Translations under genes and position numbers: made by a program
In this document: positions 1-52,877 of the stretch, in pieces
How positions within the stretch are numbered: position 1 is the first letter of the stretch
Layout of the letters: each line of letters opens with the position of its first letter
Notes under the pieces: model-generated
What the model was told of the DNA's origin: nothing
The model's input: only the letters and a program-made list of their open reading frames with translations
Database searches by the model: none
NCBI GenBank assembly: GCA_902800905.1
Contig: CADCGC010000001.1
Coordinates: 124,001-188,000 of the forward strand
Direction of reading: 5' to 3'
Length of the DNA stretch: 64,000 nt
Source of the DNA: an uncultured Erysipelotrichaceae bacterium
GTDB lineage: Bacteria > Bacillota_I > Bacilli_A > RFN20 > CAG-826

Positions 1-296
1 TATTCCTTCATCCTTTTGATGATTGTGTCCACAGCCTTCTTATCTCCACCTTTGTTATAGAGTTTTTCTCTCATTTTGTATTCGGAGTAGATAGCTTTAG
101 AACGTAACGCTAAAGCGTATTTCATTAAAGAAGCAATTTGATTGTATTCTTTGATACTTTGATATTCCTTTTTAGTTAACTCTTTTCCTTCGTATAGATA
201 AAAGTTTGGATAGACATCTTTGTCTAATTCCAACTTTTCATCATCAATATAAATATTGACTTTATTCTTGAGGATTTTGATTTTCGTGATTTTCAT
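1..296 (-). CDS. recX: Regulatory protein RecX, N-terminal part (cut by window edge)
   Basis: About 98 residues are visible, starting at an ATG at 296 and running off the left edge. The N-terminus reads MKITKIKILKNKVNIYIDDE, followed by a YPNFYLYEGKEL segment and then the helical stretch YALALRSKAIYSEYKMREKL with YNKGGD. This is the usual RecX start: a beta-rich lead, then three-helix repeats of the type L..R.rSe.el..KL...G. RecX binds RecA filaments and limits RecA activity. The start overlaps the 3' end of the upstream membrane-protein gene by 35 bp, so the two are probably co-transcribed. The C-terminal two thirds lie outside the window. Confidence 0.8.
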   Translation of the reverse strand, partial: MKITKIKILKNKVNIYIDDEKLELDKDVYPNFYLYEGKELTKKEYQSIKEYNQIASLMKYALALRSKAIYSEYKMREKLYNKGGDKKAVDTIIKRMKE

Positions 297-1392
297 GTTG
301 TTTTCTTGGTCGATAAATAAGGGCTACTAAGCAAGCAATAATAAGTGGGAAGATGAACATCAAACTTCTCCAAAGTAGAAGCGCCGCTCTAGCAATTTGC
401 TCAGTGTCATAAAATTGTGGTCCAGTTGTTGGATAGAATAAACGTAAGAAGAATAATTCAGAAACAACTGAACTACCTGGAATAGGGATAATACAAGTCA
501 CCATTTGATGGAAATTGGATAATAAAACTGAATCCCAGAAGTTCGCATTAGCGGATGTATTTCCTAAAGAAAGTCCACAGAAATATGGAACTGAATATGA
601 GATAGTAATATATGCAAAAAAGGCGACAAAACATATCAAGAAAGTCGGTATATGCTTAAAGATAGTCTTTAAATTGCCTCTAAAATTAATTACCGCTGCG
701 TCTAATTTCAATTGGCTTTGTTCTAAGCCTTTTAAGATTCTGATTTTCACTAACAACTTAATAATTGGGCCCCTAATAAAACGGAAGAAACCATTCCAAT
801 AAGAGATAAGAAGAATAAATCCAATTGATAAGGTGTTAAACGCAAAACCAATCGCCACTAGTAACCATAATGGTACTTGAGCAGCGTTATCGTTATTAAA
901 CGAAATAGAAATATAGCCAATCTCATTAATGAGATCATGTTTCACAATAATAGTGATAACACCGTAAGCGATTAAGACAATTTGATAAATGATGGAATAC
1001 ATCGCTAAAACGCTTAAAGCGTTAGAGATACTAACTCTTTGTTTGTTATAGGTATATGTCTCCATGATGTGACTACCGATACCCGCTGGAGTGACCATAC
1101 GATATAATGAGCCAATCTGGTCAATCATAATAGCGCGATGGAAATAATAATCTTTTTCAAATAAACGAGTTAATGTGAAGATAGAAATCGATCTTAAAAC
1201 AATGCAAACGATAACGATAGCTAATATGGCAAATATAAACCATATATTAGCGGTACTCAAAACATCAAAAATATCATTAATCTTATTCCCAATAGTGAGA
1301 TAGAACGCTAAAGCGGTCAAACCTAAAACGATAATGAGATAGATAACATATCTAATAACTTGTTTAATAATTTCGTTATTCTTTATAGACAT
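262..1392 (-). CDS. Flippase-like / lysylphosphatidylglycerol synthase transmembrane-domain protein (UPF0104)
   Basis: A 376-residue polytopic membrane protein with about eight hydrophobic segments. It carries the family features RMVTPAGIGSHIMETY near residue 97 and a second hydrophilic hairpin ending SSVVSELFFLRLFYP near residue 310. This matches the integral-membrane domain (PF03706 type) of MprF and of YbhN/AglD-like proteins. There is no C-terminal aminoacyltransferase domain, so it is not a full MprF. Members of the family move or modify lipid-linked substrates, but the substrate here cannot be told from sequence. It overlaps recX by 35 bp and is probably the first gene of that transcript. 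Confidence 0.7.
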   Translation of the reverse strand: MSIKNNEIIKQVIRYVIYLIIVLGLTALAFYLTIGNKINDIFDVLSTANIWFIFAILAIVIVCIVLRSISIFTLTRLFEKDYYFHRAIMIDQIGSLYRMVTPAGIGSHIMETYTYNKQRVSISNALSVLAMYSIIYQIVLIAYGVITIIVKHDLINEIGYISISFNNDNAAQVPLWLLVAIGFAFNTLSIGFILLISYWNGFFRFIRGPIIKLLVKIRILKGLEQSQLKLDAAVINFRGNLKTIFKHIPTFLICFVAFFAYITISYSVPYFCGLSLGNTSANANFWDSVLLSNFHQMVTCIIPIPGSSVVSELFFLRLFYPTTGPQFYDTEQIARAALLLWRSLMFIFPLIIACLVALIYRPRKQHENHENQNPQE

Positions 1393-2552: not shown

Positions 2553-3713
2553 TTATTTCATTACTCTAACTCGAATTACTCCAGGAAGATTCATAACTTC
2601 TTGTTTTGCACAGCCCTTATGTTCTTCCTTATGAGAGAATTCAATTAATGTAGCGGAGTATTCGCCTTTAGTTGCGGTAACACTCTTAGAGACATTAACA
2701 ACATTCATCACTCTCTTAATAACTTCATTACCATCGAGTTCTTTTTTATGGAGAACAAGAATTCTCTTGTCAACTCTCTTACCTAAATCAATGTTTGGAT
2801 AGTTAACAGAATTGACAATATTACCATTATTAACAAAGTTAAGGATTTCTGAGGCCGCCATCGCAGCGCAGTTATCTTCAGCTTCTTCAGTAGAGGCACC
2901 TAAATGACTAATCGCCACTACTCCATCCATATTTGCAGTCTTGTAGTTAGGGAAGTCAGTAACATATCTTCTGACTTTTCCACTTTCAAGAGCTTCTTTC
3001 ATATCATCATCATTAACAAGGGCGTCTCTAGCTGCATTAATAACGATAACGCCAGTCTTTGCTTTGGCTAAGAAGTCTTTATTAACCATACCTTTTGTTG
3101 CATCTAATAATGGGACGTGAATTGTAATATAGTCGGCTTCTTGTAGCATTTCATCCATTGAAACGACTTTTGTATCTTTAAGAAGTTCCTTATTTCTTTC
3201 AATTGTGGCTTGAGATGGTTCGACGCCTAACACTCTCATACCAAGTTTACTGGCAGAGTCCGCTACTAAGGCACCAATCGCTCCTAAACCAATAACACCT
3301 AAGGTTTTTCCTAAGATCTCAGTTCCAGCGTAAGCACCTTTAGCCTTTTCCATGGATTTATTGATGAGTTCATCTTCTTTATTAGCTCTAACCCATTCCA
3401 TGGAGCCTCTAATGTCTCTAGCGGCGAGTAACATCATGGCGATTGTTAATTCCTTAACCGCATTCGCATTTGCGCCAGGTGTATTAAAAACCACAACACC
3501 AGTAGAAGCATATTTGTCGAGTGGAATGTTATTAACACCAGCACCCGCTCTAGCGACACATAAAACATTTTCCGCTAAATCCATTTCGTGCATTGCAGCA
3601 CTTCTGACCATTATCGCATCAGCGTTATCAATTGATTCGGTTGAAATCTCAACATCACTTGGAAATACTTTTAATCCAACCGGAGAGATTTTGTTTAAAC
3701 AATATACTTTCAT
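2553..3713 (-). CDS. serA: D-3-phosphoglycerate dehydrogenase with C-terminal ACT domain
   Basis: A 386-residue enzyme that oxidises 3-phosphoglycerate to 3-phosphohydroxypyruvate with NAD, the first step of serine synthesis. An N-terminal substrate domain contains ARAGAGVNNIPLDK near residue 54. The NAD-binding Rossmann motif GVIGLGAIG is at about 139-147. The substrate Arg motif appears as INAARDALV, where NxARG is commoner, and the catalytic His sits in ISHLGAST near 268. The last 70 residues, with GEYSATLIEFSHKEE and NLPGVIRVRVM, look like an ACT regulatory domain. The ATG directly follows the serC stop codon, so translation is coupled. The short form (about 390 aa) is common in Firmicutes. 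Confidence 0.93.
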   Translation of the reverse strand: MKVYCLNKISPVGLKVFPSDVEISTESIDNADAIMVRSAAMHEMDLAENVLCVARAGAGVNNIPLDKYASTGVVVFNTPGANANAVKELTIAMMLLAARDIRGSMEWVRANKEDELINKSMEKAKGAYAGTEILGKTLGVIGLGAIGALVADSASKLGMRVLGVEPSQATIERNKELLKDTKVVSMDEMLQEADYITIHVPLLDATKGMVNKDFLAKAKTGVIVINAARDALVNDDDMKEALESGKVRRYVTDFPNYKTANMDGVVAISHLGASTEEAEDNCAAMAASEILNFVNNGNIVNSVNYPNIDLGKRVDKRILVLHKKELDGNEVIKRVMNVVNVSKSVTATKGEYSATLIEFSHKEEHKGCAKQEVMNLPGVIRVRVMK

Positions 3714-4802
3714 TTATTTATGGGCCTCTTCAAATTCTTTCATGTATTTCACGAGTGCTTCAACACCTTCAATTGGCATTGCGTTATAAATAGACGCTCT
3801 TAAGCCACCAACAGAACGGTGTCCTTTTAAGTTAGTGAAGCGATATTTTTTAGCACCTTCTAAGAACTCAGCGTCAAGTTCATCGCTTGGTGTTCTAAAG
3901 GTGACGTTCATTAATGAACGTGAATCTTTATCAACATATGGTTTAAAGAACTTACTTTGATCTAAATAATCATATAAGATCTTGGCTTTCTTTTCGTTAA
4001 TTTCTTTTCTCTTTTCGAGTCCACCAGTCTTAAGTAACCACTTGAAGACTAAGCCACAAACATAGATGGCAAATGTTGGTGGGGTGTTATACATCGAACC
4101 ATTTTCAGCGTGCACTCTAAAGTCTAAATAAACTGGAAGAGGAACTCTTGGCGCTCTCGCTAACAAGTCTTCTCTAATAATGTAGATAGTAACACCAGCA
4201 GGACCAACATTCTTTTGTGCTCCAGCGTAGATAATGCCAAACTTAGAAACGTCAATTGGCTCGCTTAAGAAACAAGATGACATATCACACACGAGTGGGA
4301 TATCTCCGGTATCTGGATATTCTTTATATTTAGAGCCATAAATTGTGTTGTTATCGCAAATATAGACATAGTCTGCATCTTCTCTAAATTTCAAACCTTT
4401 TAGGTTTGGAATATGTTTAAATCCATCTTCTTCACTAGTCGCTACAACGTTAACATCAGCGAATAACTTGGTGTCTTTAATGACTTTCTTTGTCCAAACA
4501 CCAGTGTTAATGATATCAACCTTTCCGTTAGTGGCGAAATTCATTGGAATCATTGAGAATCCTAATGTCGCTCCACCTTGGAGGAATAGCACTTTGTAGT
4601 TATCTGGAATTCCAATAAGTTTTCTTAAATCAGCTTCTGCGGTGTCGATGATATTTTGATAGACCTTCGATCTATGGCTCATCTCCATCACTGACATTCC
4701 AGAACCATCTTTGTCGAGCATTTCTTCCGCAACTTGTTCTAGTACTTCCTCTGGTAGCATCGCTGGACCAGCAGAGAAGTTATAAATTCTATTTCCTTTC
4801 AT
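3714..4802 (-). CDS. serC: Phosphoserine aminotransferase
   Basis: A PLP enzyme that converts phosphohydroxypyruvate and glutamate to O-phosphoserine and 2-oxoglutarate. The start is placed at 4802 (MKGNRIYNFSAGPAMLPEEV) because AGGAG at 4814-4818 precedes it. An in-frame ATG at 4823 lies upstream of that site and has no ribosome-binding site of its own. The family signature NFSAGPAMLP opens the protein, FLQGGATLGFSMIPMN follows near residue 70, and the PLP lysine lies in YAGAQKNVGPAG near 195. HRSVGGLRASIYNAMP near the C-terminus is the typical phosphate-binding end. It forms one operon with gdhA, the DUF1015 gene and serA. Confidence 0.95.
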   Translation of the reverse strand: MKGNRIYNFSAGPAMLPEEVLEQVAEEMLDKDGSGMSVMEMSHRSKVYQNIIDTAEADLRKLIGIPDNYKVLFLQGGATLGFSMIPMNFATNGKVDIINTGVWTKKVIKDTKLFADVNVVATSEEDGFKHIPNLKGLKFREDADYVYICDNNTIYGSKYKEYPDTGDIPLVCDMSSCFLSEPIDVSKFGIIYAGAQKNVGPAGVTIYIIREDLLARAPRVPLPVYLDFRVHAENGSMYNTPPTFAIYVCGLVFKWLLKTGGLEKRKEINEKKAKILYDYLDQSKFFKPYVDKDSRSLMNVTFRTPSDELDAEFLEGAKKYRFTNLKGHRSVGGLRASIYNAMPIEGVEALVKYMKEFEEAHK

Positions 4803-4832
4803 TATTAATCTTTCTCCTTTCATGAATAATAA

Positions 4833-6047
4833 TTAGGCAATCTTTTTAGCTTCTAAGTAATATCGCTTTTCAGAGGCATGTCCCATAGAAAAACTCTTTC
4901 TTGGTAATACCTTATCTAAAGCGACAAATTCAAAGATGTCACTTTTACCTAAAGCAGGCATTAAAATAGCAAGAGACCCGCTATTTTTGTTAGCGACATC
5001 AATTAAAGATGATTCATCATGAATGAAATCAACTTTGCTTTCTTTATGATTTTGTAGATATTCATCAATATATTTTTGAATGATTTGATAAGTCTCGGCA
5101 GCGTTCCCCGGAACCTTAAATTCAACTTTACCTAATTCTTTAGAATAAGCATAAGTTGTCTTTGCCCCATTCGAGCACAATCCTTTAAGTCCCGCTAGTA
5201 ATTCTTTATCTGCGTTAAAGATAATTCTATGAATTGGTTCAAAGATAATTCCTTCATCATAGATGTTATTAGCCTCCACTAAAGCGAAACGAGCAGGATG
5301 AGTTTTTCTTTCTTCTTCACTTAGTGTTTGTTTAACATTTTCCCAGTGTGCTTTCGCGGTTGCTAAAGAATGGTTACCATCTCCAACAATAAACATCAAA
5401 CCATTGTTGTTCTTTTTATATAAAGAATCAAATAGTCTAATAACATTTTGAGTATCTTTAATGAGATAGCCTCTAATATGTCCACCATTTTGATTTAAAT
5501 CAAAATCATATAGACATTCTAATTTGTCTCTATCTTTGTAGATAGGTTCCACGATTGTTTTATCTTTGTCATCAAATAGTAAAAGCGTGTGAGGTAATTC
5601 AATTGGAGCGTCTTTTCTAATCTTAAGACGAGGAGGAATTCTTTCCACAATTGTTGCTTCACTCGCTTTAATGGAACAAGGAACACCTCTAAGATAAGAA
5701 TATTCTTCTAAATCGATAGAGATGATTAACCCTAATCTTCTCACTCCATAAGAAGTCACTCTTTCCACCAATACGAAAGATTCCCCTTTATCAAGGAGAT
5801 CTCCGTTAGAGAGATATCTATTAATATTTATATTAATATTATTGATGTATTCTTCTTGGTTTGTGCTTTCTAAATACGCTTCTGGGTAAATCATATGGAA
5901 GGTTGATACTGAATTACCAATGTCTTCCTTTAATTCATCCCAATATTCTTTTTGACTAGTGAATTGATCACAAGCAACGACCGCATATTTAGTCATATCA
6001 ACGCCTTCTTTTGGAAGGTAGATATGAGGAGCATGAACAACACTCAT
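4833..6047 (-). CDS. DUF1015 family protein, serine-pathway associated
   Basis: About 404 residues, recognised as DUF1015 by the opening VHAPHIYLPKEGVDMTKYAVVACDQ and the later block FIVGDGNHSLATAKAHWE near residue 225. Its biochemical role is not established. The family is often found beside serA and serC in Firmicutes and Thermotoga-like genomes, as here. The start is taken as the ATG at 6047, whose A is the last base of the gdhA stop codon (TAATG overlap). An in-frame GTG at 6053 is the alternative. It sits 30 bp before serC. The link to serine metabolism is inferred from position only. Confidence 0.82.
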   Translation of the reverse strand: MSVVHAPHIYLPKEGVDMTKYAVVACDQFTSQKEYWDELKEDIGNSVSTFHMIYPEAYLESTNQEEYINNINININRYLSNGDLLDKGESFVLVERVTSYGVRRLGLIISIDLEEYSYLRGVPCSIKASEATIVERIPPRLKIRKDAPIELPHTLLLFDDKDKTIVEPIYKDRDKLECLYDFDLNQNGGHIRGYLIKDTQNVIRLFDSLYKKNNNGLMFIVGDGNHSLATAKAHWENVKQTLSEEERKTHPARFALVEANNIYDEGIIFEPIHRIIFNADKELLAGLKGLCSNGAKTTYAYSKELGKVEFKVPGNAAETYQIIQKYIDEYLQNHKESKVDFIHDESSLIDVANKNSGSLAILMPALGKSDIFEFVALDKVLPRKSFSMGHASEKRYYLEAKKIA

Positions 6048-7393
6048 TAGCACACACCTTGAGCAAGCATTGCGTCGTATACTTTGAGGAAACCAGCGAT
6101 ATTTGCGCCTAAAGCAAGATTACGTGGTTGCCCGAATTTAACTGCTGTTTCATGACATTGTTTAAAGATATTCTTCATAATACCCTTAAGCTTTTCGTCA
6201 ACTTCTTCAAACGTCCAAGATAAGTGCATCGCGTTTTGACTCATTTCTAAGCCAGATACTGCCACTCCACCAGCGTTACTAGCTTTTCCTGGTGAGAATA
6301 AAACTTCATTCTCATTGAAGTATCTAATAGCCTCTAAGTCACATGGCATATTCGCACCTTCAGCGACCATATAACAGCCATTTTGTTTGAGTTCTTTCGC
6401 GTTTTCTAGATTAATTTCGCCTTGAGTTGCACATGGCATTGCGATATCACAAGGAACTTTCCATAAGTCTCTAGAAACATCACTATGTTTAACGCCTGGA
6501 TGTTTAGCGACATAGTCTTTAGTGAATTCACCTTTTGCTTTTGCAAGTTCAACGATTTCATCAACATCTAAGCCATTTGGGTCAGCGACATAACCATTAA
6601 TGTCACTCATTCCAACAATTGTTGCTCCTAGTTCAGCGGCTTTACGTAACGCCATTGAACCAACTTTACCACTACCAGAGATAATAACTTTCTTACCTTT
6701 GAAGTCAGTGTTGAAATATGTCTTTAACATTTCTTCAGCGAAATAGCATAAGCCATATCCTGTAGCCTCTGGTCTACCTAAAGAACCACCATAAGAGAAG
6801 TTCTTACCAGTAAAGACTCCACTCCACTCATCAACGATTCTCTTATATTGACCAAACATATAGCCAATTTCTCTAGCTCCAAATCCTAAGTCTCCAGCAG
6901 GAACGTCAGTGTTTGGTCCGATATGACGATAGAATTCAGTCATAAATGACTGACAGAATCTCATCACTTCTCCATCACTCTTTCCACGAGGATTGAAATC
7001 GGAGCCACCTTTGCCTCCACCCATTGGGAGTCCGGTTAAGCTATTTTTAAATGTTTGTTCAAATCCTAAGAATTTAAGAATTGATAAGTTAACTGATTTA
7101 TCAAATCTCATTCCACCTTTATATGGTCCAATCGCAGAGTTAAATTGGACTCTATATCCAGTATTAACTTGAATCTTTCCGTTATCATCCACCCAAGGAA
7201 CTCTAAACTCTATGATTCTTTCTGGGACAACTAATCTTTCTAAGATTGAGTACTGTTCAATCTTTGGATCTTTTTCCACTAAGAAATCCATAGAATCAAA
7301 GAATTCTTCCACTGCTTGAATGAATTCAGTTTCGTTAGAATATCTTCTTCTAACATCTTCTAACAAGTTGTTTAAATATTGACTTTTGTACAT
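6047..7393 (-). CDS. gdhA: NADP-type glutamate dehydrogenase
   Basis: A 448-residue hexameric-type GDH making glutamate from 2-oxoglutarate and ammonia. Visible motifs are YKGGMRFDKSVNLSILKFLG, then GLPMGGGKGGSDFNPRGKSD with the catalytic Lys region, DVPAGDLGFGAREIGYM with the catalytic Asp, and the Rossmann GSGKVGSMA near residue 240. The start at 7393 (MYKSQYLNNLL) has AAGGAG ten bases upstream. A longer frame reaching 7441 has no ribosome-binding site. Leading the operon, it supplies glutamate to SerC, the next enzyme but one. A 9-7-9 inverted repeat upstream may control it. Confidence 0.95.
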   Translation of the reverse strand: MYKSQYLNNLLEDVRRRYSNETEFIQAVEEFFDSMDFLVEKDPKIEQYSILERLVVPERIIEFRVPWVDDNGKIQVNTGYRVQFNSAIGPYKGGMRFDKSVNLSILKFLGFEQTFKNSLTGLPMGGGKGGSDFNPRGKSDGEVMRFCQSFMTEFYRHIGPNTDVPAGDLGFGAREIGYMFGQYKRIVDEWSGVFTGKNFSYGGSLGRPEATGYGLCYFAEEMLKTYFNTDFKGKKVIISGSGKVGSMALRKAAELGATIVGMSDINGYVADPNGLDVDEIVELAKAKGEFTKDYVAKHPGVKHSDVSRDLWKVPCDIAMPCATQGEINLENAKELKQNGCYMVAEGANMPCDLEAIRYFNENEVLFSPGKASNAGGVAVSGLEMSQNAMHLSWTFEEVDEKLKGIMKNIFKQCHETAVKFGQPRNLALGANIAGFLKVYDAMLAQGVC

Positions 7394-8126: not shown

Positions 8127-9941
8127 ATGCAAGCATTAATGTTAGCAGCGGGTCTAGGAAAAAGACTAGCGAAATACACAAAAAACAACACCAAGTGTAT
8201 GGTGGAAGTCGCTGGAGAAAAATTAATTGATCGAGCGATTAAATCAATCAAGAAAGCAGGAATCAAACGTTTTGTTCTTGTTACTGGATATAAAGGAAAG
8301 GAATTACAAGAATATATTCTTTCTCACCATAAGGGTGAACTTGATTTTGTGTTTATTGATAACGATGTCTATAGCACCACTAACAATATCTATTCTTTTT
8401 ATCTCGCTAAAGATGAACTCGTGAAAGACGACACAATCCTACTCGAAAGCGATATCATCTTTGATGAAGACTTAATCAAAGAAGTTAAAGAAAGCGAAGA
8501 AAGTAACACAGTTGTCGTTGCTAAATATGAAAGCTGGATGGATGGCACGGTTGTGACATTAACTGAAGATAACCACATCCATAAATTTGTTGAAAAACAA
8601 AATATGAAGATTGGTCGCTTAGATCAATATTACAAGACCGTTAACGTTTATAAGTTCTCAAAAGAATTCCTCGCTAACGTATATCTTCCATTCTTAAAGA
8701 CATATATGGATATTCAAGGTTTCAATGCTTACTATGAAACCTCATTAAAATATATTTGTCAGTTACCAAATATTTCTATGAAAGCATTCTTAATGGATGA
8801 AAGACCATGGTATGAAATTGATGACGCTCAAGATTTAAATATCGCAAATATCTTATTCTCTAAAGGAGAAGAAAAATATAATCTTCTTACCTCCACCTAT
8901 GGAGGATTCTGGAGATATCCTGGATATATTGATTTCTGCTACTTAGTGAATCCATATTTCCCAAAACAAAATATGATTGAGAAAATGCAAAACGAATTCC
9001 CAATTCTTTTAAGACAATATCCTTCAGGATTAAAAACTCAAAACATGAATGCTTCTAGAACCTTTAATGTTAACGAAGAATATCTTCTTGTTGGTAATGG
9101 AGCGGCAGAGCTCATTAACGCTTTAGGGAGAGTGTTTAAAGGAAAGAAAGTGGCAGTCAACTTACCAACATTCAATGAATATGTTAGATGTTTCAAAGAA
9201 TGTCAAATAAGTGAAATTGATAATTCTTATAATGATTATGCATTAAGTAAATGCGATATAAGAAATGCCTTAAATAACAATGATGCGGTAATTATCGTCA
9301 ATCCTGAAAACCCATCAGGATATATGTTTGATAAAGATGAAATCATTGAGTTATGTGACTACGCGAAAGAAGTAGATAAAGTTCTTGTTATCGATGAGTC
9401 ATTTGAAGACTTTGCTAAAAAAGAAAGAAGATATACTTTACTTGATGATTCATTCTTAGAAAAATATCCAAACGTCATTGTCGTTAAATCAATCTCTAAA
9501 TCATTTGGAGTTCCAGGACTCCGTTTAGGTGTGCTTGCCAGTAGTGATAAATCACTCTTAAAAGATCTCAAAGAAGAGATGCAAGTGTGGAATATCAACT
9601 CCTTTGGAGAATATTACCTTCAAGTCTATAATCTCTACTCCAAAGACTATCTAGCAAGCTGTGACTTAATTGCTGAGCAAAGAGAATATATGATTTCTGA
9701 ACTTAGAAAGATCAAAGGCATCAAAGTCTACGACTCTGAAGCTAACTATGTTATGGTGGATCTTGGTAACACTAATTCAAAAGAATTATGTATCAATCTC
9801 TTAGACAACAAAAAAATCATCATCAAGGATTTGTCCACTAAGAACAAGTTTAATGGAAGAAACTTCATTAGGCTTGCAGTCAGAGATCAAAATGATAATG
9901 ATTTGCTACTAAACGAATTAAGAAAATATTTAATTAAATAA
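8127..9941 (+). CDS. Bifunctional nucleotidyltransferase (LicC/PntC-like) - CobD/HisC-like PLP enzyme
   Basis: A 604-residue fusion. Residues 1-245 are a sugar-phosphate/choline-phosphate type nucleotidyltransferase: MLAAGLGKRL, NTKCMVEV, the acidic LLESDIIFDED, and WYEIDDAQDL at its end. Residues 275-604 are a fold-type I PLP enzyme: LLVGNGAAELINALG, NPENPSG, VIDESFEDF, the PLP lysine in SISKSFGVPGLRLG, and FIRLAVRDQNDN near the C-terminus. The last motif and DESFEDF are closer to CobD-type phosphothreonine/phosphoserine decarboxylases than to HisC. Comparable fusions are known in PntC-type 2-aminoethylphosphonate cytidylyltransferases, but no pepM or ppd is nearby. AAGGAT lies nine bases before the ATG. 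Its 3' end overlaps the convergent glycosylase gene by 12 bp. Confidence 0.8.
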   Translation: MQALMLAAGLGKRLAKYTKNNTKCMVEVAGEKLIDRAIKSIKKAGIKRFVLVTGYKGKELQEYILSHHKGELDFVFIDNDVYSTTNNIYSFYLAKDELVKDDTILLESDIIFDEDLIKEVKESEESNTVVVAKYESWMDGTVVTLTEDNHIHKFVEKQNMKIGRLDQYYKTVNVYKFSKEFLANVYLPFLKTYMDIQGFNAYYETSLKYICQLPNISMKAFLMDERPWYEIDDAQDLNIANILFSKGEEKYNLLTSTYGGFWRYPGYIDFCYLVNPYFPKQNMIEKMQNEFPILLRQYPSGLKTQNMNASRTFNVNEEYLLVGNGAAELINALGRVFKGKKVAVNLPTFNEYVRCFKECQISEIDNSYNDYALSKCDIRNALNNNDAVIIVNPENPSGYMFDKDEIIELCDYAKEVDKVLVIDESFEDFAKKERRYTLLDDSFLEKYPNVIVVKSISKSFGVPGLRLGVLASSDKSLLKDLKEEMQVWNINSFGEYYLQVYNLYSKDYLASCDLIAEQREYMISELRKIKGIKVYDSEANYVMVDLGNTNSKELCINLLDNKKIIIKDLSTKNKFNGRNFIRLAVRDQNDNDLLLNELRKYLIK

Positions 9942-11918: not shown

Positions 11919-12767
11919 TTAATTCAAATAATTAGAGGTAATTGAAACAAAGAAATCTTTGTTCCAAAGTGATAATTTGTTTTCATTTTTAATAAAAGAC
12001 GAACAATCTTTTTTTGCCTCTTCAAAATCAACAGAATCAAGTCTATTAATTAAATCGGCTTTAAGATTATCAATGTTGTAATCACAATCGCTTTTTAAAA
12101 ACCCTGTTTGAATTAATGAGTTTTTCAAAAGGTCCATATTTGGTTTTGTCCCCCTATTTAAATAGAAGACATAATCATAATAGTCTCTACCTTTTGTCCA
12201 GTTTCTGCATAATAACGCATGTAACTTTCCGGCAAGTAAAGATGATTCATCATAAATAAGGACTCGATAAGGAGATGGAAACAATCCATATTTATATTCA
12301 AACGTCGCTCCTGAAGGAGGATTGGTATCAATTTCAATTTTTACTTTGATCGAAGATATATGTCCTAGTCTTTTTGATAATTCTTCGTTAAGGCCAATAT
12401 TTATTAAATTTGTAATTGTATCTCCTTTAACAAACGCACTCTGAACTGCTCCAATCGATTTTTTGCTTTGAACAGAGACAGCTAATCCAAAAGCGTTCAT
12501 ATTCTTTTCAATAGCAGGTAAATAATCATCCAAGGAAAAATTCTTATCTTTCTTGATAAGAGAGAAGTCTAAATCTTCGCTAGCGCGATCTAAATCATAA
12601 AAAATTCTTAATGCGGTTCCACCCAAAAAAGCTACTTTTGTAAAAAAATCGGTTTTACTTAGTGAAAATAGCGTGAGCTCTTGAATCACTTCTCTAATCG
12701 CATTTATATATTCTTTGTTGGTGGTTGCTTTATATTGATTAATTCTATTTAACAAAATGTTTTCCAT
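11919..12767 (-). CDS. AbiEii-type nucleotidyltransferase toxin (copy 1)
   Basis: About 282 residues of the AbiEii/COG2253 nucleotidyltransferase family. The polymerase-beta-like core GGTALRIFYDLDRASEDLDF is at about 52-71, and the second family motif LLAGKLHALLCRNWTKGRDYYDY is near 200. AbiE toxins modify RNA with nucleotides and are held in check by AbiEi. The start at 12767 is fixed by GGAGG nine bases upstream. The frame open to 12791 has no such site. It overlaps the antitoxin gene by 23 bp. A second AbiE pair occurs near 25 kb. Confidence 0.87.
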   Translation of the reverse strand: MENILLNRINQYKATTNKEYINAIREVIQELTLFSLSKTDFFTKVAFLGGTALRIFYDLDRASEDLDFSLIKKDKNFSLDDYLPAIEKNMNAFGLAVSVQSKKSIGAVQSAFVKGDTITNLINIGLNEELSKRLGHISSIKVKIEIDTNPPSGATFEYKYGLFPSPYRVLIYDESSLLAGKLHALLCRNWTKGRDYYDYVFYLNRGTKPNMDLLKNSLIQTGFLKSDCDYNIDNLKADLINRLDSVDFEEAKKDCSSFIKNENKLSLWNKDFFVSITSNYLN

Positions 12768-13350
12768 TTTTAATGTCCTCCAATAGTGCAATAAAGTATT
12801 TGTGATTAACTGTTTTATATTTTTTTGATAGCTCGATTAGTTTGTCAAAATCTAACGAAAGAAATTCATCAATATCAATTCTTAAAGAATCAAATAAAAG
12901 ACTTTGTATTTTCTTTTTACTATGAATAGGAGAAAGAATATATAAATAATCGCAAATGGCTTTTTCTTTCGTTGCAATTAAATAAGAATAGCCCGATTCT
13001 TGAATCCATTTGGTTTCTAAATAGAAAACAGAAGATGGAACATCGCGATATGAATATCTCCCAAATTGATTCGTGTATTTTGTAATATGTTTTTGACCAG
13101 TTGTTGCGTTTGTAAACTCAACAGCAAATTCAGGAATTAAACCATAAATTGATAAAGCATATTCAAAAGATAAATATGATGGAGATTTAATATATTGAGA
13201 CAAAAGATATCCAGGGACATCTTTTTCTGTTTCATATAAACCTTTTTTAATTAAAAAATAATTACCTTTTTCTATTTCTCTTTTAATTTTCATTTTAGGG
13301 ACTTTATAGTCACCATATTTATTCATTAATTCTTGAGTAGAAATTACCAT
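12745..13350 (-). CDS. AbiEi-type antitoxin / transcriptional regulator (copy 1)
   Basis: 201 residues. The N-terminal winged HTH (TQELMNKYGDYKVPKMKIKR) is followed by the AbiEi-type block KGLYETEKDVPGYLLSQYIK, then SYLSFEYALSIYGLIPE and a later ATKEKAICDYLYIL. This is the layout of type IV AbiEi antitoxins. GGTGAG lies just before the ATG. An inverted repeat at 13363-13383 lies within 15-35 bp of the start and is a natural site for autoregulation. Paired with AbiEii immediately downstream. Confidence 0.83.
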   Translation of the reverse strand: MVISTQELMNKYGDYKVPKMKIKREIEKGNYFLIKKGLYETEKDVPGYLLSQYIKSPSYLSFEYALSIYGLIPEFAVEFTNATTGQKHITKYTNQFGRYSYRDVPSSVFYLETKWIQESGYSYLIATKEKAICDYLYILSPIHSKKKIQSLLFDSLRIDIDEFLSLDFDKLIELSKKYKTVNHKYFIALLEDIKNGKHFVK

Positions 13351-24705: not shown

Positions 24706-25578
24706 TTAATTTACTGAAGATAGTTCATTAAGTGTTGAAATAAAAAGTTCTTTTTTCCAAAATTTTAAACTTTCCTTGTCAATAATGAAGTTGGAAACAT
24801 CCGCTTTGGCGGATTCATAATCAATAGATTCAAATTTTGCTCTAAGCAATTCTTTGACTTTATCCAATGTTAAGGTTTCATCATAATCTATAATTCCACC
24901 AGTATTTTTCAACTTGCTTTCAAGATATTTGAGATTGAATTTGCTTCCCTTGCCAATATAGAAAAGATAATCATAATAATCTCTTCCTTTGACATGGTTT
25001 TTATAACTTCTACACAAAATAGCGTGTATCTTTCCTGAAAACAAAGTTGCTTCATCAAATATTCTAACCTCATATGGAGCGGGTAACATTTTGTATTTAT
25101 ATTCAGTGACTCCACCAATAGGATTATCAGTATCTACTTCAAACTTAATTTTTATCTTTTGATTAGACACTACTCTTTTTGCATCTTCGCTTTTCGGGAA
25201 GAAAGACATCATAAGCATTAATGTGTTTCCTTTTAGGAACGCGCTTTGGACATCATTATTTTCATCTTTCTTTTTAGGCTCAATAATCATATCTATGCCA
25301 TATGATTCAAATTCTTTTTTAAGAACAGAAAAGTAATCCTCTATCTTAAAATTAGAATCTTTTTCTAATAAAGCAAAATCAAGATCCTCGCTAAAGCGAT
25401 TTAAGCCATGGAATATTCTTAAACACGTTCCACCATAAAAAGCTGCTTTTTTAAAGAAACCACCACGCGATAAACCCGCTAAAGCAATTTCTTGAATTAT
25501 TTCTTTAATTGCATTTTCTCTTTCCTCGTTATTTTGAGGATTATACTTTGCAAGCATTGTTTCGATAACACTATTCAT
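24706..25578 (-). CDS. AbiEii-type nucleotidyltransferase toxin (copy 2)
   Basis: 290 residues. The core YGGTCLRIFHGLNRFSEDLD (about 48-67) and LFSGKIHAILCR..KGRDYYDYLFY near 185 match AbiEii. It has the same layout as the copy at 11919-12767 but is clearly diverged, with many substitutions and an extra Lys-rich insert (PKKKDENND), so it is not a recent duplicate. It overlaps its antitoxin gene by 8 bp. Expected role: RNA-modifying toxin released on antitoxin loss. Confidence 0.87.
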   Translation of the reverse strand: MNSVIETMLAKYNPQNNEERENAIKEIIQEIALAGLSRGGFFKKAAFYGGTCLRIFHGLNRFSEDLDFALLEKDSNFKIEDYFSVLKKEFESYGIDMIIEPKKKDENNDVQSAFLKGNTLMLMMSFFPKSEDAKRVVSNQKIKIKFEVDTDNPIGGVTEYKYKMLPAPYEVRIFDEATLFSGKIHAILCRSYKNHVKGRDYYDYLFYIGKGSKFNLKYLESKLKNTGGIIDYDETLTLDKVKELLRAKFESIDYESAKADVSNFIIDKESLKFWKKELFISTLNELSSVN

Positions 25579-26164
25579 GGCTATATTCCTTTCTAATTAG
25601 TTTAATTAACATATCTAAATTCGTTTTCTTATATAAAGATGCTAGTCTCATCATCAACATAAAATCACATGTTGAGAATTCTTTTTCATCAATTCTTTTG
25701 TCTACGAATAGTAATTCCTTAAGAGATTTAACACTATTAACTACTCTCCACTTGCTTAAAGAATCACAAATTGCCTTCTCCTTAGTAGCAATCTTTACAG
25801 CGTATTCACCTTTTTCTAAATAAGTTAATCCTTCTGAAAAAGCTAAAGATGGAACATCGCTATATTCAAATCTTCCAAACTTATTTATAAATGTCTTATT
25901 CTTTCTAATATTTAATGACGCTGAAGTAATTGAAAAAACTTTCTCTGGTATTAATCCATAATAAGATAAAGCCCAATCAAAACTAAGATATGATGGAGAT
26001 AATATAGAGGAGGCTAAAAAACATGGTTCAACTCCACCATCAGTTTCATAAATTCCCCTAGTAAGTCTAAAAAGTATACCGCTATCTGTATCTCTTTTAA
26101 TCTTGTCTAGTGGATTAGAATAATCACTATATCTATTTCTAAGCATTGATGCTGTAATTATCAT
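25571..26164 (-). CDS. AbiEi-type antitoxin / regulator (copy 2)
   Basis: 197 residues starting MIITASMLRNRYSDYSNPLD at 26164, with GGAGGAG five bases upstream. An open frame extending to 26233 crosses the promoter and is rejected. The winged HTH is followed by TRGIYETDGGVEPCFLASSI, SYLSFDWALSYYGLIPEKV and YAVKIATKEKAICDSLSKW, paralleling copy 1. It probably represses its own promoter, TTGATA-16 bp-TATAAT, located 20-47 bp upstream. Confidence 0.85.
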   Translation of the reverse strand: MIITASMLRNRYSDYSNPLDKIKRDTDSGILFRLTRGIYETDGGVEPCFLASSILSPSYLSFDWALSYYGLIPEKVFSITSASLNIRKNKTFINKFGRFEYSDVPSLAFSEGLTYLEKGEYAVKIATKEKAICDSLSKWRVVNSVKSLKELLFVDKRIDEKEFSTCDFMLMMRLASLYKKTNLDMLIKLIRKEYSHE

Positions 26165-26183
26165 ATTTGCTCCTCCAAATACA

Positions 26184-26211
26184 ATTATATTGGATTTAAT
26201 GGAGATATCAA
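26184..26211 (-). promoter_or_regulatory. Promoter of the second AbiE pair
   Basis: TTGATA (26211-26206), a 16-bp spacer and TATAAT (26189-26184) on the minus strand, 20 bp before the start codon. The rest of 26212-26631 is AT-rich and I see no gene in it. It includes a pair of near-repeats, GTAACCCCTACA and GTAACTCCTACA, around 26528-26564. Confidence 0.7.
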
Positions 26212-26631
26212 GTGTATTTTTATAGATAAACAATCAAAATATTGTTGCGATAAAGTTCGATTTTGCTTTTAGACAAATTATCAACACTCACAGTCGAGAA
26301 TTTATCATTTCTTAAAAATTCCTTTACTGCTCATTTATATGCAAACTGTTTATACTCACTAAACACTTTTGTGATATTTAATAAAACTGTTTAGTAGAAA
26401 AGTGTCGTTAAATCTAAGTTATGGCGTAACTTTTACATTTTTTCAAATTATTACGCTTTAACGCCCATTTTTCGTGATTGACATGAACAATCTAAAAACA
26501 TAACAAAACTGCAAATTATGCATTTTTGTAACCCCTACACATTCAAAATTAGTAACTCCTACAATTAAAAAACTGCTTGAATAACTTTTTATCTTGATGG
26601 ATTTATAGACACATAAGGAACAGGCACCACT

Positions 26632-37324: not shown

Positions 37325-40282
37325 TTAATCAAAATATATATTTGAGTCATATACCGAAACATTAGTGCCTTTAAATGTGTTGTTAATCCTTTGAATTAGT
37401 TCTTTTTTATCAACATTCTTTTTAAGAATAACTTGTAAAAAGCCTCCTCCACCAGCACCAACAACCATTCTTCCACAAATCAAATCATCAATAGAATCAA
37501 ATATCTGTTCAATTAAAATATTCGAGCTTCCTTTATCAATCATCTTTGATAAAGTCCAATGATTATCTAACAATTTGCCAAACAATGATATATCACCCAA
37601 TACTAATGCATCTTTCATTTGAATAGCAATATTTTGAATTCTTTCCAAAGCATAAAGAGTATCTTCGTTATTTGTCAAATAATTAGAAATGACGCTTCTT
37701 AAAAGATTTCTTGCCAACCTTCTTTGACCAGTAGATATCAAAACAAGTCTATTGTTAAATTCATCAATCGTTTTTTTAGAAAGGGTTATTTTTTCAACAA
37801 TAAGTTTTTGGACAAGTCCAGGTTTAGATGTAATTACTTTAATTCCTGGATAAAGACCACCAATTTGGTCTTGCCATCCTCCGCCAGTGGACATTATTTG
37901 TTCGACACACAAAACAATTGATGAAATTTTGTCATTGCTTGCTTCGATGCCAAAAAAATCAAAGACGGCCTTTACACAGCAAGCAGCGAGGATTGATGAT
38001 GTTCCTAGCCCACTTCCTTTTGGAACATTTGACACTTCCGATTTCAAAATAAAACCACCACCAACTCTCTTTAAAATTGCCGTAAGATTGCCACCTTTGA
38101 TGGGAATGACACCCGTGGCAACTAAAACGGCTTTCGGCAGAGCAAATTCATCATATGGATTGCCGGTTGATTGCAGTGATTTAGTATCAGAAAATTCACA
38201 GTAAGATTTCATATCATCACTTTTGAAGATAATTTTTCTTTCACTGATTTTTTGAATAGAAACGGAAACAGGCATCTCGTTTTTTAATAAAATAGAAGCA
38301 TTTAATACAGTCCCTCCATGTTCATTACAATAAGGAGGTGTGTCGGACCATCCACCACCAAAATTAATACGCAGTGGCATTTTGATTATGGTTTTCTCTT
38401 TGGAAATTCTTAATTCATCATTGTATGAGATGGTGCTTTTATAGGCATTAATAATGTTTTGATTGATAATTCTATAAGCTTGTCCAATATAATCAACATT
38501 ATCATCAAGTAATTCATTTAAAAAATGATAAATTTTAGCTTGATCAATAAATGAAATAGTTTCACTTTTTTCCTTCAACCACTCTTTTTGGTTTTTGGAT
38601 AAATGCTTCTTGGTTTGAATTTTTTTGATTTCTATTGCTGAGCTCTTATTTTTAACAAGAGAATATAGGTTTTCCATCTTGATTATGTCGATTAACTTGT
38701 TGTTCCACTGGAAAATTGACTCACTATTTGATTTATTAAAACTACTGTTAAGAGATTCTCTTTTTTTAGAAATCCAAACATCAATATGGCCCTGTGAAAT
38801 GAAAATATCGTAAAGATTAAGTGATTGATTTAATGCTTCATCAATAGTGTCACAAACAGGATAAATATTCGCATTCCACAAAGACAAATCGTCATTAAAA
38901 ACATTATCTGAATTAATATTTAATTCTTTCATTTTGTTAACAATGTCAATACCAAATAATTTATTCTCTTTTGGGTTGTCGTTAATTCCAAAAATTCTGA
39001 CTACAAACTTATTGTTGTCTAGTTTTAAACCATGCACAACAACATCGCTTGGAATCTTAACATTTTTAAGTTCTAAAAAAGATACAATGGAATTATTCCC
39101 AATGTTGACATTCTTATGAACATAAGATGATTCAATATAAACATTCTTGCCAGATATTGTTGAATCTTCAACAACACTCAAATAAGAAGAAGAATTGTTT
39201 AAAAGGTTAGAGGAACATATGTTTTTATTCCAACCAAAGTATGAGTAATTATCTAGTTCAATTGTGTGTAATTCAAGCACTTCTTTGCTTGTTCCAAAAT
39301 GAACAAATTTTGCTTGAGTAAACGATTCAAGTATTATTCGATATTTTCTTAACACATTCCAAACCTTTGTCCTTGCATTAAGTAACTCGCTATTAATTGT
39401 TCCTTCTGGTTTTTCTTTATAAAATTGTTCTAATGTTGATTTTTCAGCTAACGGATATAAGAAGTCGCCATAAAAAGATAGGCGAACTTTTTTATTTACT
39501 AATTCACTATATTTATTTTTATCATCGACCAAAGAATACAGGTCATTAAGAATGCATGAGGAAAAGAATACAGCGCCTGTATCTATATTAATTCTTCCAT
39601 TAGTATCGGAAGCATTTTGTTTTAAAAACTCATATGGTTGCTTATGCAAAAATGATGCAATCGGAGAATCTTCTTTACCAACAAAAACACCATGGCTTTC
39701 CCCTGTTTCTGGAGTTTCTTTAAAAGAAATTGCAGCAGCGTTTTGCTTTGGCTGGTAAAAATCAAGATTGTTAAATACCAGCAAAACATCTCCAGATAAA
39801 ATAAGTGATCCTGATTTGATTTTTGTTGGAATATAACTTACCGACATCAACAATTCATCAAATAAAGTTGATGGCTCTCCATCCATTAAAACGTGTGGCA
39901 CGGGAGCAAACAATTTTCCAATAGCACTATATTGAGGTATTCTTTTAGAATCACCACCACTATGGATAATTAGAATTCTTCTTTTATTAAAGTCACAGTT
40001 ATACTTTTCTTTAAGGTCCTTTATTACAGATAAGGTGGCGCCGCCAGAGCCCACTCTTTCATCTAAATAATCAGGGACGACAATAAATTGCGTTTGTGAT
40101 GGAAGGCGATTCCTCCTGCGTTCTATTTCTTTAAGGTATCTATTTGCCTGAGTTTTGTTTGATGCAGTTATACAAACAAAATCCCAACTTAAGGCGTTTT
40201 TATTTTTAATACATTGGTTATAATAGTCTACACAATCTAAATAATAAGTATTAAGAAATGATGAAAACTTTTCCATAAACAT
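37325..40282 (-). CDS. fkp: Bifunctional L-fucokinase / GDP-L-fucose pyrophosphorylase
   Basis: 985 residues. The N-terminal half is a fucose-1-phosphate guanylyltransferase: DERVGSGGATLSVIKDL, IIHSGGDSKRIPQYSAIGK, APVPHVLMDGEPSTLFDE. The C-terminal half is a GHMP kinase: PLRINFGGGWSDTPPYCNEH, the ATP loop VPKGSGLGTSSILAA near residue 760, and MVVGAGGGGFLQVIL. Together they phosphorylate free fucose and make GDP-fucose, the salvage route best known from Bacteroides Fkp. The ATG overlaps the ManC stop by 1 bp, with GGAG five bases upstream. Fkp is uncommon in low-GC Gram-positives, so acquisition by transfer is likely. Confidence 0.9.
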   Translation of the reverse strand: MFMEKFSSFLNTYYLDCVDYYNQCIKNKNALSWDFVCITASNKTQANRYLKEIERRRNRLPSQTQFIVVPDYLDERVGSGGATLSVIKDLKEKYNCDFNKRRILIIHSGGDSKRIPQYSAIGKLFAPVPHVLMDGEPSTLFDELLMSVSYIPTKIKSGSLILSGDVLLVFNNLDFYQPKQNAAAISFKETPETGESHGVFVGKEDSPIASFLHKQPYEFLKQNASDTNGRINIDTGAVFFSSCILNDLYSLVDDKNKYSELVNKKVRLSFYGDFLYPLAEKSTLEQFYKEKPEGTINSELLNARTKVWNVLRKYRIILESFTQAKFVHFGTSKEVLELHTIELDNYSYFGWNKNICSSNLLNNSSSYLSVVEDSTISGKNVYIESSYVHKNVNIGNNSIVSFLELKNVKIPSDVVVHGLKLDNNKFVVRIFGINDNPKENKLFGIDIVNKMKELNINSDNVFNDDLSLWNANIYPVCDTIDEALNQSLNLYDIFISQGHIDVWISKKRESLNSSFNKSNSESIFQWNNKLIDIIKMENLYSLVKNKSSAIEIKKIQTKKHLSKNQKEWLKEKSETISFIDQAKIYHFLNELLDDNVDYIGQAYRIINQNIINAYKSTISYNDELRISKEKTIIKMPLRINFGGGWSDTPPYCNEHGGTVLNASILLKNEMPVSVSIQKISERKIIFKSDDMKSYCEFSDTKSLQSTGNPYDEFALPKAVLVATGVIPIKGGNLTAILKRVGGGFILKSEVSNVPKGSGLGTSSILAACCVKAVFDFFGIEASNDKISSIVLCVEQIMSTGGGWQDQIGGLYPGIKVITSKPGLVQKLIVEKITLSKKTIDEFNNRLVLISTGQRRLARNLLRSVISNYLTNNEDTLYALERIQNIAIQMKDALVLGDISLFGKLLDNHWTLSKMIDKGSSNILIEQIFDSIDDLICGRMVVGAGGGGFLQVILKKNVDKKELIQRINNTFKGTNVSVYDSNIYFD

Positions 40283-48651: not shown

Positions 48652-50088
48652 TTAAATTTCAATTTCACAATAATTGACATCTTTTTCCTTTTTTATAACC
48701 AAAATATGATAAAAATAGTAAAAAGTAATTATCAAAGATATAACAATAGCCACCCATCCAGAAACATTATTAATTATAAACAAAACAGTATTTTTGATAG
48801 AAAACTTCTTAATTAATATTAATAAACTAAGAGGCAATATTACCCAGCAAGAATATGTTAAAATACTAGCAACAACAGAGGAATGCAAAGCTTTCTTTTT
48901 AAAAATATGTTTTAAAAAGAACATTAGAATAGATAAAGCAATAAATAATATACCAACAAGAATATATAAAGGTGATCTCATCGAATTCAAAAGCACAATA
49001 ATGGATGGATATAATGTTGTTTCGTTTGTAACATTGTTAATCGGCATATTATTAGGGACAGAAAAATCTGTCTTAATAAAAGTTTTTAAATACTGTAAAT
49101 CATCGTACATATTCATATTCACTTTATATTCGTTTCCAACCGATAAGAACAATCTTGCTGGTTCAAAGCAAAAATTACTTAACGAGCACTTAAAATATAT
49201 ATACTCTCCTGTCGAACTCGAATATAAATTGTTTCTAAATAACGTGTCTTTTAATTCAGGATTATAATAACCGCCAACCTTAAACAAGTAACTTATTTCC
49301 CCAAAATCTGCCACAATATTCTCACCAATAGAATTCAAAGGATTACCACTTCCGATTAATGAAGCGAATGTGTCGGGTATAACTATTGGTATAGCGTTTA
49401 CTTTTGTTGTTTTTCCTTCGTCTACAACTTCAATTTGAATTCGAGCTTCAAAGTTTTTATAGGAAGCTATTAATGTAGCAGTACCTGTGCTAAAAGCAGT
49501 AATCACTCCGGCTTCATCAACATTAAAAATGTTAACATCAGTACTTGTCCAAGCAATTAAATTGTTCTCAATATACTCTTCACCATTTCTAACCCGAACC
49601 GAATCAACTTCGCCAACAGGTAGTATCATATGGTCGAATTCAAAATACAAGTTGTCTTTTGATTCAAAAAAAGCTTCTGAAAAAGTTGATGGATATGTCA
49701 ATTTTAAAAGATTAGTAGAAAAAGATGGCCTCTCTTCTAAATATGATAGATCCGAAAATGAATAAGTATAATCAATGTTATCATAACTAATTTTTATAGG
49801 GTTTGTTTCAGACCAAAGACAGCCATAATTATAGTATTTTTGTCCACCATTAAATGAGTTCACAAAATTACTATATTTTTCTATTTTATCCTTGGATAGA
49901 TTCTCTCTAATGTTGTATTCAAAAATCAATGTATTAAACGGAGTATTTTTCTTCGAATAATTATCAGCGTTAGCAAAAGCTATTTTTTCGTAATTTGGTG
50001 ACAAAAGGGAGATACCAATAATCATCAACAAAAATTGAAAAAACAAAACAACTGATTGCAGAATTACAAATAAGGTTTTTTTGTTCAT
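48652..50088 (-). CDS. Capsule-locus membrane protein with a Big_2 (bacterial Ig-like) domain
   Basis: 478 residues. The N-terminal helix (about 8-30) acts as a signal anchor. The extracytoplasmic part of about 330 residues contains a Big_2-like stretch, WTSTDVNIFNVDEAGVITAF followed by STGTATLIASY, near residues 180-215. Three further helices close the protein (about 370-465). No catalytic motif is recognised. Its ATG overlaps the TGA of the polymerase-flippase fusion by 4 bp, so it is made together with the export machinery and may assist polymerisation or surface retention (inference). Confidence 0.65.
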   Translation of the reverse strand: MNKKTLFVILQSVVLFFQFLLMIIGISLLSPNYEKIAFANADNYSKKNTPFNTLIFEYNIRENLSKDKIEKYSNFVNSFNGGQKYYNYGCLWSETNPIKISYDNIDYTYSFSDLSYLEERPSFSTNLLKLTYPSTFSEAFFESKDNLYFEFDHMILPVGEVDSVRVRNGEEYIENNLIAWTSTDVNIFNVDEAGVITAFSTGTATLIASYKNFEARIQIEVVDEGKTTKVNAIPIVIPDTFASLIGSGNPLNSIGENIVADFGEISYLFKVGGYYNPELKDTLFRNNLYSSSTGEYIYFKCSLSNFCFEPARLFLSVGNEYKVNMNMYDDLQYLKTFIKTDFSVPNNMPINNVTNETTLYPSIIVLLNSMRSPLYILVGILFIALSILMFFLKHIFKKKALHSSVVASILTYSCWVILPLSLLILIKKFSIKNTVLFIINNVSGWVAIVISLIITFYYFYHILVIKKEKDVNYCEIEI

Positions 50089-52850: not shown

Positions 52851-52877
52851 AAGCAAATTCCTCGGTAGATGAACTAA

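Follow-up and report, generated by a model that had tools for sequence, protein, structure and literature searches.

A fused LicC-like cytidylyltransferase and CobD-like PLP enzyme from an uncultured Erysipelotrichaceae bacterium, predicted to make CDP-ethanolamine from phosphoserine

Ethanolamine-phosphate decorations of bacteria are usually drawn from lipid phosphatidylethanolamine (PE), while phosphocholine decorations usually rely on environmental choline. The enzymes most similar to the protein described below belong to other pathways. SMUL_1544 of Sulfurospirillum (PDB 6oux), which we take to be a serine-O-phosphate decarboxylase from its annotation and the title of 6oux, is a norcobamide enzyme that stands alone in a cobamide operon, without a nucleotidyltransferase. 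CobD, the L-threonine-O-3-phosphate decarboxylase, is a cobamide pathway enzyme. The PntC-AEPT protein Tde1415 of Treponema denticola (6pd1/6pd2) joins an N-terminal LicC-family cytidylyltransferase to a C-terminal fold-type I PLP domain, in this case a class V 2-aminoethylphosphonate (AEP) transaminase of a phosphonate pathway. In Tde-PntC, Glu104 is among the residues placed to contact the primary amine of AEP, and the corresponding residue of LicC is Asp105; LicC prefers phosphocholine over phosphoethanolamine by 2700-fold (PMC6697681).

The protein under study is a fusion of 604 aa, encoded at 8127-9941 (+) of a 64,000-nucleotide stretch of DNA that was analysed as a whole and is termed the window. 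Its ORF starts with ATG and contains no internal stop, and the gene is present in a single copy in the source genome. In Pfam, the N-terminal half matches NTP_transferase (PF00483, 46.6 bits, residues 3-184) as well as MobA-like PF12804, and the C-terminal half matches Aminotran_1_2 (PF00155, 132 bits, residues 311-596). The intact ORF and these domains bear out the preliminary description, in which a LicC/PntC-like nucleotidyltransferase and a fold-type I PLP domain had been recognised in one protein, and the two motifs named there, FIRLAVR and DESFEDF, are both found. The AlphaFold2 model is confident throughout (mean pLDDT 93, pTM 0.85), and the structural match of the PLP domain begins at residue 246-257. 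About 80 relatives have the same two-domain layout, and 4 of the 18 other genomes of the genus carry the gene at 67-68% identity; the fusion is therefore neither a chance nor a sequencing join. Since only 5 of the 19 genus genomes have it, the source included, it is an accessory gene.

Table 1. Domains of the fusion and selected neighbouring genes, in window positions.
Feature	Position	Strand	Remarks
LPG_synthase_TM (PF03706) membrane protein	262..1392	-	
serA-like phosphoglycerate dehydrogenase, towards phosphoserine precursor	2553..3713	-	recognised from sequence
serC-like phosphoserine aminotransferase	3714..4823	-	recognised from sequence
DUF1015 (PF06245) protein adjoining serC-serA	4833..6053	-	
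N-terminal nucleotidyltransferase domain, LicC/PntC-like	8127..8852	+	residues 1-242; PF00483/PF12804; PDB relatives 1jyk, 6pd1
Short helical linker	8853..8921	+	residues ~243-265; secondary structure of model
C-terminal fold-type I PLP domain, predicted O-phosphoserine decarboxylase	8922..9938	+	residues ~266-604

With a probability of roughly 0.6, the fusion is a bifunctional phosphoserine decarboxylase/CTP:phosphoethanolamine cytidylyltransferase that serves surface glycans. The C-terminal PLP domain would convert O-phospho-L-serine to ethanolamine phosphate, using the chemistry of CobD-type O-phospho-amino-acid decarboxylases, and the N-terminal domain would transfer CMP from CTP onto ethanolamine phosphate to give CDP-ethanolamine. 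The activated group would then reach a cell-surface polysaccharide through a phosphotransferase, for many relatives one of the LicD type. Many relatives may in addition N-methylate the amine, or have it reductively N-alkylated by a dehydrogenase of the opine dehydrogenase or OCD family encoded next door. For the source organism, we infer both substrates, the product and the acceptor from the evidence that follows.

The N-terminal half has the LicC-family nucleotidyltransferase fold, with the LAAGxGxRL motif and metal-binding Asp residues of the LicC/PntC cytidylyltransferases. Besides LAAGxGxRL, its motifs are K23, E107-S108-D109 and D232-D233, with conserved residues checked across 54-81 relatives. 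Its best PDB relatives are LicC (1jyk), the top match, and PntC-AEPT (6pd1, Tde-PntC). LicC shares its fold and motifs, and a LicD partner, as of LicC, is found in many loci of relatives; Tde1415 shares its LLESD motif with the amine-contacting Glu, such that LLESDIIF of the fusion aligns with LLESDLIY of Tde-PntC and Glu107 falls on Glu104. Glu107 is invariant across the fusion family, whereas LicC has Asp105 at this place, and this would favour a small primary amine over choline phosphate. Such a site could accommodate phosphoethanolamine or AEP equally well. The likeness to Tde1415 does not extend to the PLP half, which is of the Aminotran_1_2 family and CobD-like rather than a class V aminotransferase, and the two fusions look independent in origin.

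The match of Glu107 to the AEP-specific Tde-PntC speaks for a phosphonate function, in which the PLP half decarboxylates phosphonoalanine to AEP and the nucleotidyltransferase makes CMP-AEP as a PntC-type tailoring enzyme. We consider this function unlikely. It is consistent with unfused rhizobial homologues, which have similar active sites and lie in operons with aepX (PEP mutase) and a second aminotransferase; the same operons hold a phosphocholine-cytidylyltransferase-like gene and often a CDP-alcohol phosphotransferase. Moreover, at two loci of relatives (L037 and L081), a PEP mutase with the EDKxxxxxNS motif adjoins the fusion or lies one gene off. However, among 50 fusion-bearing genomes, PEP mutase occurs in just 6. 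In at least three of those it is joined to a LicC-like nucleotidyltransferase of its own, and a phosphonopyruvate-decarboxylase-like gene, recognised from sequence, lies close by. A full-genome search for pepM, as the preliminary description had proposed, found no PEP mutase and hence no sign of the PntC pathway in the source genome, which is 94% complete; a phosphonate route is therefore unlikely in the source organism, and this reading was rejected for it. Phosphonoalanine may still be the substrate of some members, given the rhizobial aepX clusters and the pepM genes beside L037 and L081, and the family may thus consist of decarboxylases whose substrate varies with the pathway, being phosphoserine in some cases and its phosphonate analogue, phosphonoalanine, in others. 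On rhizobial plasmids (L120, L122, L123 and L135), aepX, an aminotransferase, a cytidylyltransferase, a CDP-alcohol phosphotransferase and a CobD-like PLP gene are found together, a set that looks like a phosphonoalanine route to AEP.

That the PLP half is decarboxylase-like is well supported by an ML tree and by comparison of active-site residues. In the tree, the fused relatives, the rhizobial homologues and the Sulfurospirillum serine-O-phosphate decarboxylase form one clade of 27 rows (support 100/98), in which the Sulfurospirillum row is a long branch, and CobD and HisC fall outside. SMUL_1544 is also the nearest solved structure in a PDB sequence search, ahead of CobD and HisC. By structure, the ranking is CobD (Z 40.0), SMUL_1544 (Z 38.8, 28% identity over 354 aligned residues) and HisC (Z 36.9), with neighbouring Z values close to one another. 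The PLP lysine is K458, and the family and the Sulfurospirillum enzyme have in common CYLxN (271-275), YPS300, DESF426, W488-N-x-N491, K572 and R582/R586. Tree, residues and fold thus uphold the earlier view that this half lies closer to phospho-amino-acid decarboxylases than to aminotransferases, and, in the comparisons suggested at that time, the predicted structure matches CobD and SMUL_1544 best, while the active-site residues place it with the serine-O-phosphate decarboxylase type.

These residues make it quite improbable that the PLP half is a HisC/AEPT-like aminotransferase that makes or consumes an amino-alkyl phosphate. Pfam does assign it to Aminotran_1_2, its fold is common to HisC, and relatives are annotated in databases as aminotransferases or histidinol-phosphate transaminases, but both the tree and the residues favour decarboxylases (F not Y at 426, R not G at 586, and W488). 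E. coli HisC has Tyr426, Tyr488 and Gly586, and the score for the HisC model TIGR01141 is 164.5 bits, below the cut-off of 276.55. Among eight HisC-like proteins from the phylum, seven have DEAY and the terminal Gly; the eighth (L137) has DESY with Lys and groups with CobD in the tree.

Just as improbable is a threonine-phosphate decarboxylase, whose product, aminopropanol phosphate, would enter cobamide or, after activation to CDP-aminopropanol, surface polymers. CobD TIGR01140 is the top NCBIfam model for the PLP half, above hisC, and CobD is the top structural match, alike in fold and in its DE(S/A)F...R type of motif. The score of 180.4 bits is, however, 110 bits below the curated CobD cut-off of 290.55, the fusion lies outside the CobD clade, and CobD proteins have D/E at position 300 and Phe at 572 and also differ at residues 271-273. 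In addition, the relatives are located in polysaccharide loci. To judge from its sequence, phosphoserine would be a better guess than phosphothreonine as the substrate of the PLP half.

The least probable reading, CDP-ethanolamine for PE lipid by a bacterial Kennedy pathway, would fit a source genome in which no PS decarboxylase was found and distant relatives in Erwinia and Agrobacterium with a CDP-alcohol phosphotransferase directly downstream, but it was rejected, since the sole CDP-alcohol phosphotransferase found in the source genome is PgsA, which with the missing PS decarboxylase makes PE synthesis unlikely, and close relatives sit with polysaccharide genes.

The surroundings of the relatives agree with the predicted role of the fusion in surface decoration. 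Relatives were collected from 80 loci, nearly all of full length and at 40-68% identity, in Bacteroidota, Fibrobacterota, Bacillota, Spirochaetota, Actinomycetota and Saccharimonadota, although many come from MAGs, so that single taxon labels may be wrong; one more relative is found in Fusobacterium. Most of the genes around them encode glycosyltransferases, flippases, sugar transferases or LicD, the last present in 43 of 79 loci. Within the genus, the fusion lies beside capsule-type genes (sugar transferase, UDP-sugar dehydrogenase, epimerase, LPG_synthase_TM), and an LPG_synthase_TM orthologue adjoins it or is one gene off in three genus relatives (G001, G003 and G011). The link to surface polymers, originally proposed from the window, is thereby strengthened.

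In the window itself, gdhA, DUF1015, serC and serA lie upstream of the fusion, all on the opposite strand, and a UDG-like gene lies downstream. The preliminary description had pointed to serC-serA as a nearby source of phosphoserine. The two genes are indeed 3.3 kb upstream of the fusion, but they were rejected as its conserved partner, because no serC-like gene is found in the loci of relatives and they are absent from those of genus relatives. The capsule locus of the window, at 35-53 kb, holds fucose and uronate genes and no LicD. Two LicD genes are present in the source genome, neither of them near the fusion; one is paired with a TagD-like gene, and the other resembles a type that occurs across the genus whether or not the fusion is present. 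LicD is found in all 5 genus genomes that carry the fusion and also in 12 of the 14 that lack the fusion, so its co-occurrence within the genus is uninformative about the role of the fusion.

Several other features of the window were recorded. A 985-aa bifunctional fucokinase/fucose-1-phosphate pyrophosphorylase (Fkp-like; 37325-40282) adjoins de novo GDP-fucose-type genes and a GT11 gene in one capsule locus, and a 923-aa ORF at 50085-52856 encodes both an O-antigen ligase/polymerase domain (Wzy_C) and a flippase domain (Polysacc_synt). Two paralogous gene pairs, about 41-42% identical (11919-13350 and 24706-26233), resemble AbiEi/AbiEii toxin-antitoxin systems.

The DUF1015 protein of the window was considered as a serine kinase and set aside, as no kinase was found by sequence or profile search. 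In Fusobacterium vincentii, the locus contains LicD, the fusion and a divergent DUF1015 gene that overlaps the 3' end of the fusion gene; a formyltransferase-like gene, the fusion and the DUF1015 gene overlap end to end there (L116:8225-11869). The Fusobacterium DUF1015 protein has a DGHHR motif, and its best PDB matches come from archaeal free serine kinase, which produces phosphoserine (PMC5120207), with an E value (0.012) that is marginal. If it is such a kinase, it would supply phosphoserine.

The gene directly 3' of the fusion is of the Octopine_DH family in 26 of 77 cases and of the OCD/mu-crystallin family in 11 of 77 (37/77 together), and the ends of the dehydrogenase and fusion genes usually overlap or nearly touch. 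The two kinds of gene alternate in one slot even among close relatives, such as Fibrobacter MAGs; on the fusion tree, the opine dehydrogenase and OCD labels require 21 and 11 changes and are as scattered as shuffled labels. The exchange of two unrelated NAD(P)H dehydrogenase families in one slot suggests a common reaction, and the simplest would be reductive alkylation of the ethanolamine nitrogen by a keto acid. This suggests that the relatives often end up with a decoration other than unmodified ethanolamine phosphate; the clade of the source fusion has no such neighbour. No relevant account of an N-carboxyethyl-ethanolamine phosphate structure turned up in a search of the open-access literature. 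A group of this type is known from a Proteus O-antigen.

Methyltransferases form another kind of neighbour, adjoining the fusion in six loci of relatives; in Gloeothece, a methyltransferase lies beside the fusion together with LicD. Three near-identical loci from differently labelled MAGs (L063, L067 and L079) combine the fusion with a methyltransferase, a fused nucleotidyltransferase-kinase (LicC-LicA-like) and a possible transporter, which points to a combined choline/ethanolamine decoration. On plasmid pBM700 of Priestia megaterium (L117:4534-12638), a relative of the fusion occurs with two ATP-grasp genes, an AAC(3)-like gene and a DXP reductoisomerase homologue, in what looks like a natural-product cluster.

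The component parts of the fusion are already known, as is the PntC-AEPT fusion with another PLP class. No description of a fused phosphoserine decarboxylase/cytidylyltransferase, or of a route from phosphoserine to CDP-ethanolamine, was found in the open-access literature, outside of which most subscription journals lie. It is possible, if more tentative than the activity itself, that many bacteria of the gut and rumen decorate their surfaces through a hub of this kind, a single fused enzyme that leads de novo from phosphoserine to CDP-ethanolamine by a route not previously described. Swappable tailoring genes may then diversify the product before LicD attaches it to the glycan: opine dehydrogenase or OCD would yield N-carboxyalkyl phosphoethanolamine, and methyltransferases would produce N-methylated forms and perhaps even phosphocholine, with no need for choline from the host.

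If this is true, CDP-ethanolamine from central metabolism would give bacteria without PE and choline uptake a supply of their own. From the swappable dehydrogenase neighbours one would expect common genera of the gut and rumen to carry unusual N-substituted groups on their capsules, a testable prediction. A new name would also be needed for many genes at present annotated as aminotransferase or histidinol-phosphate transaminase.
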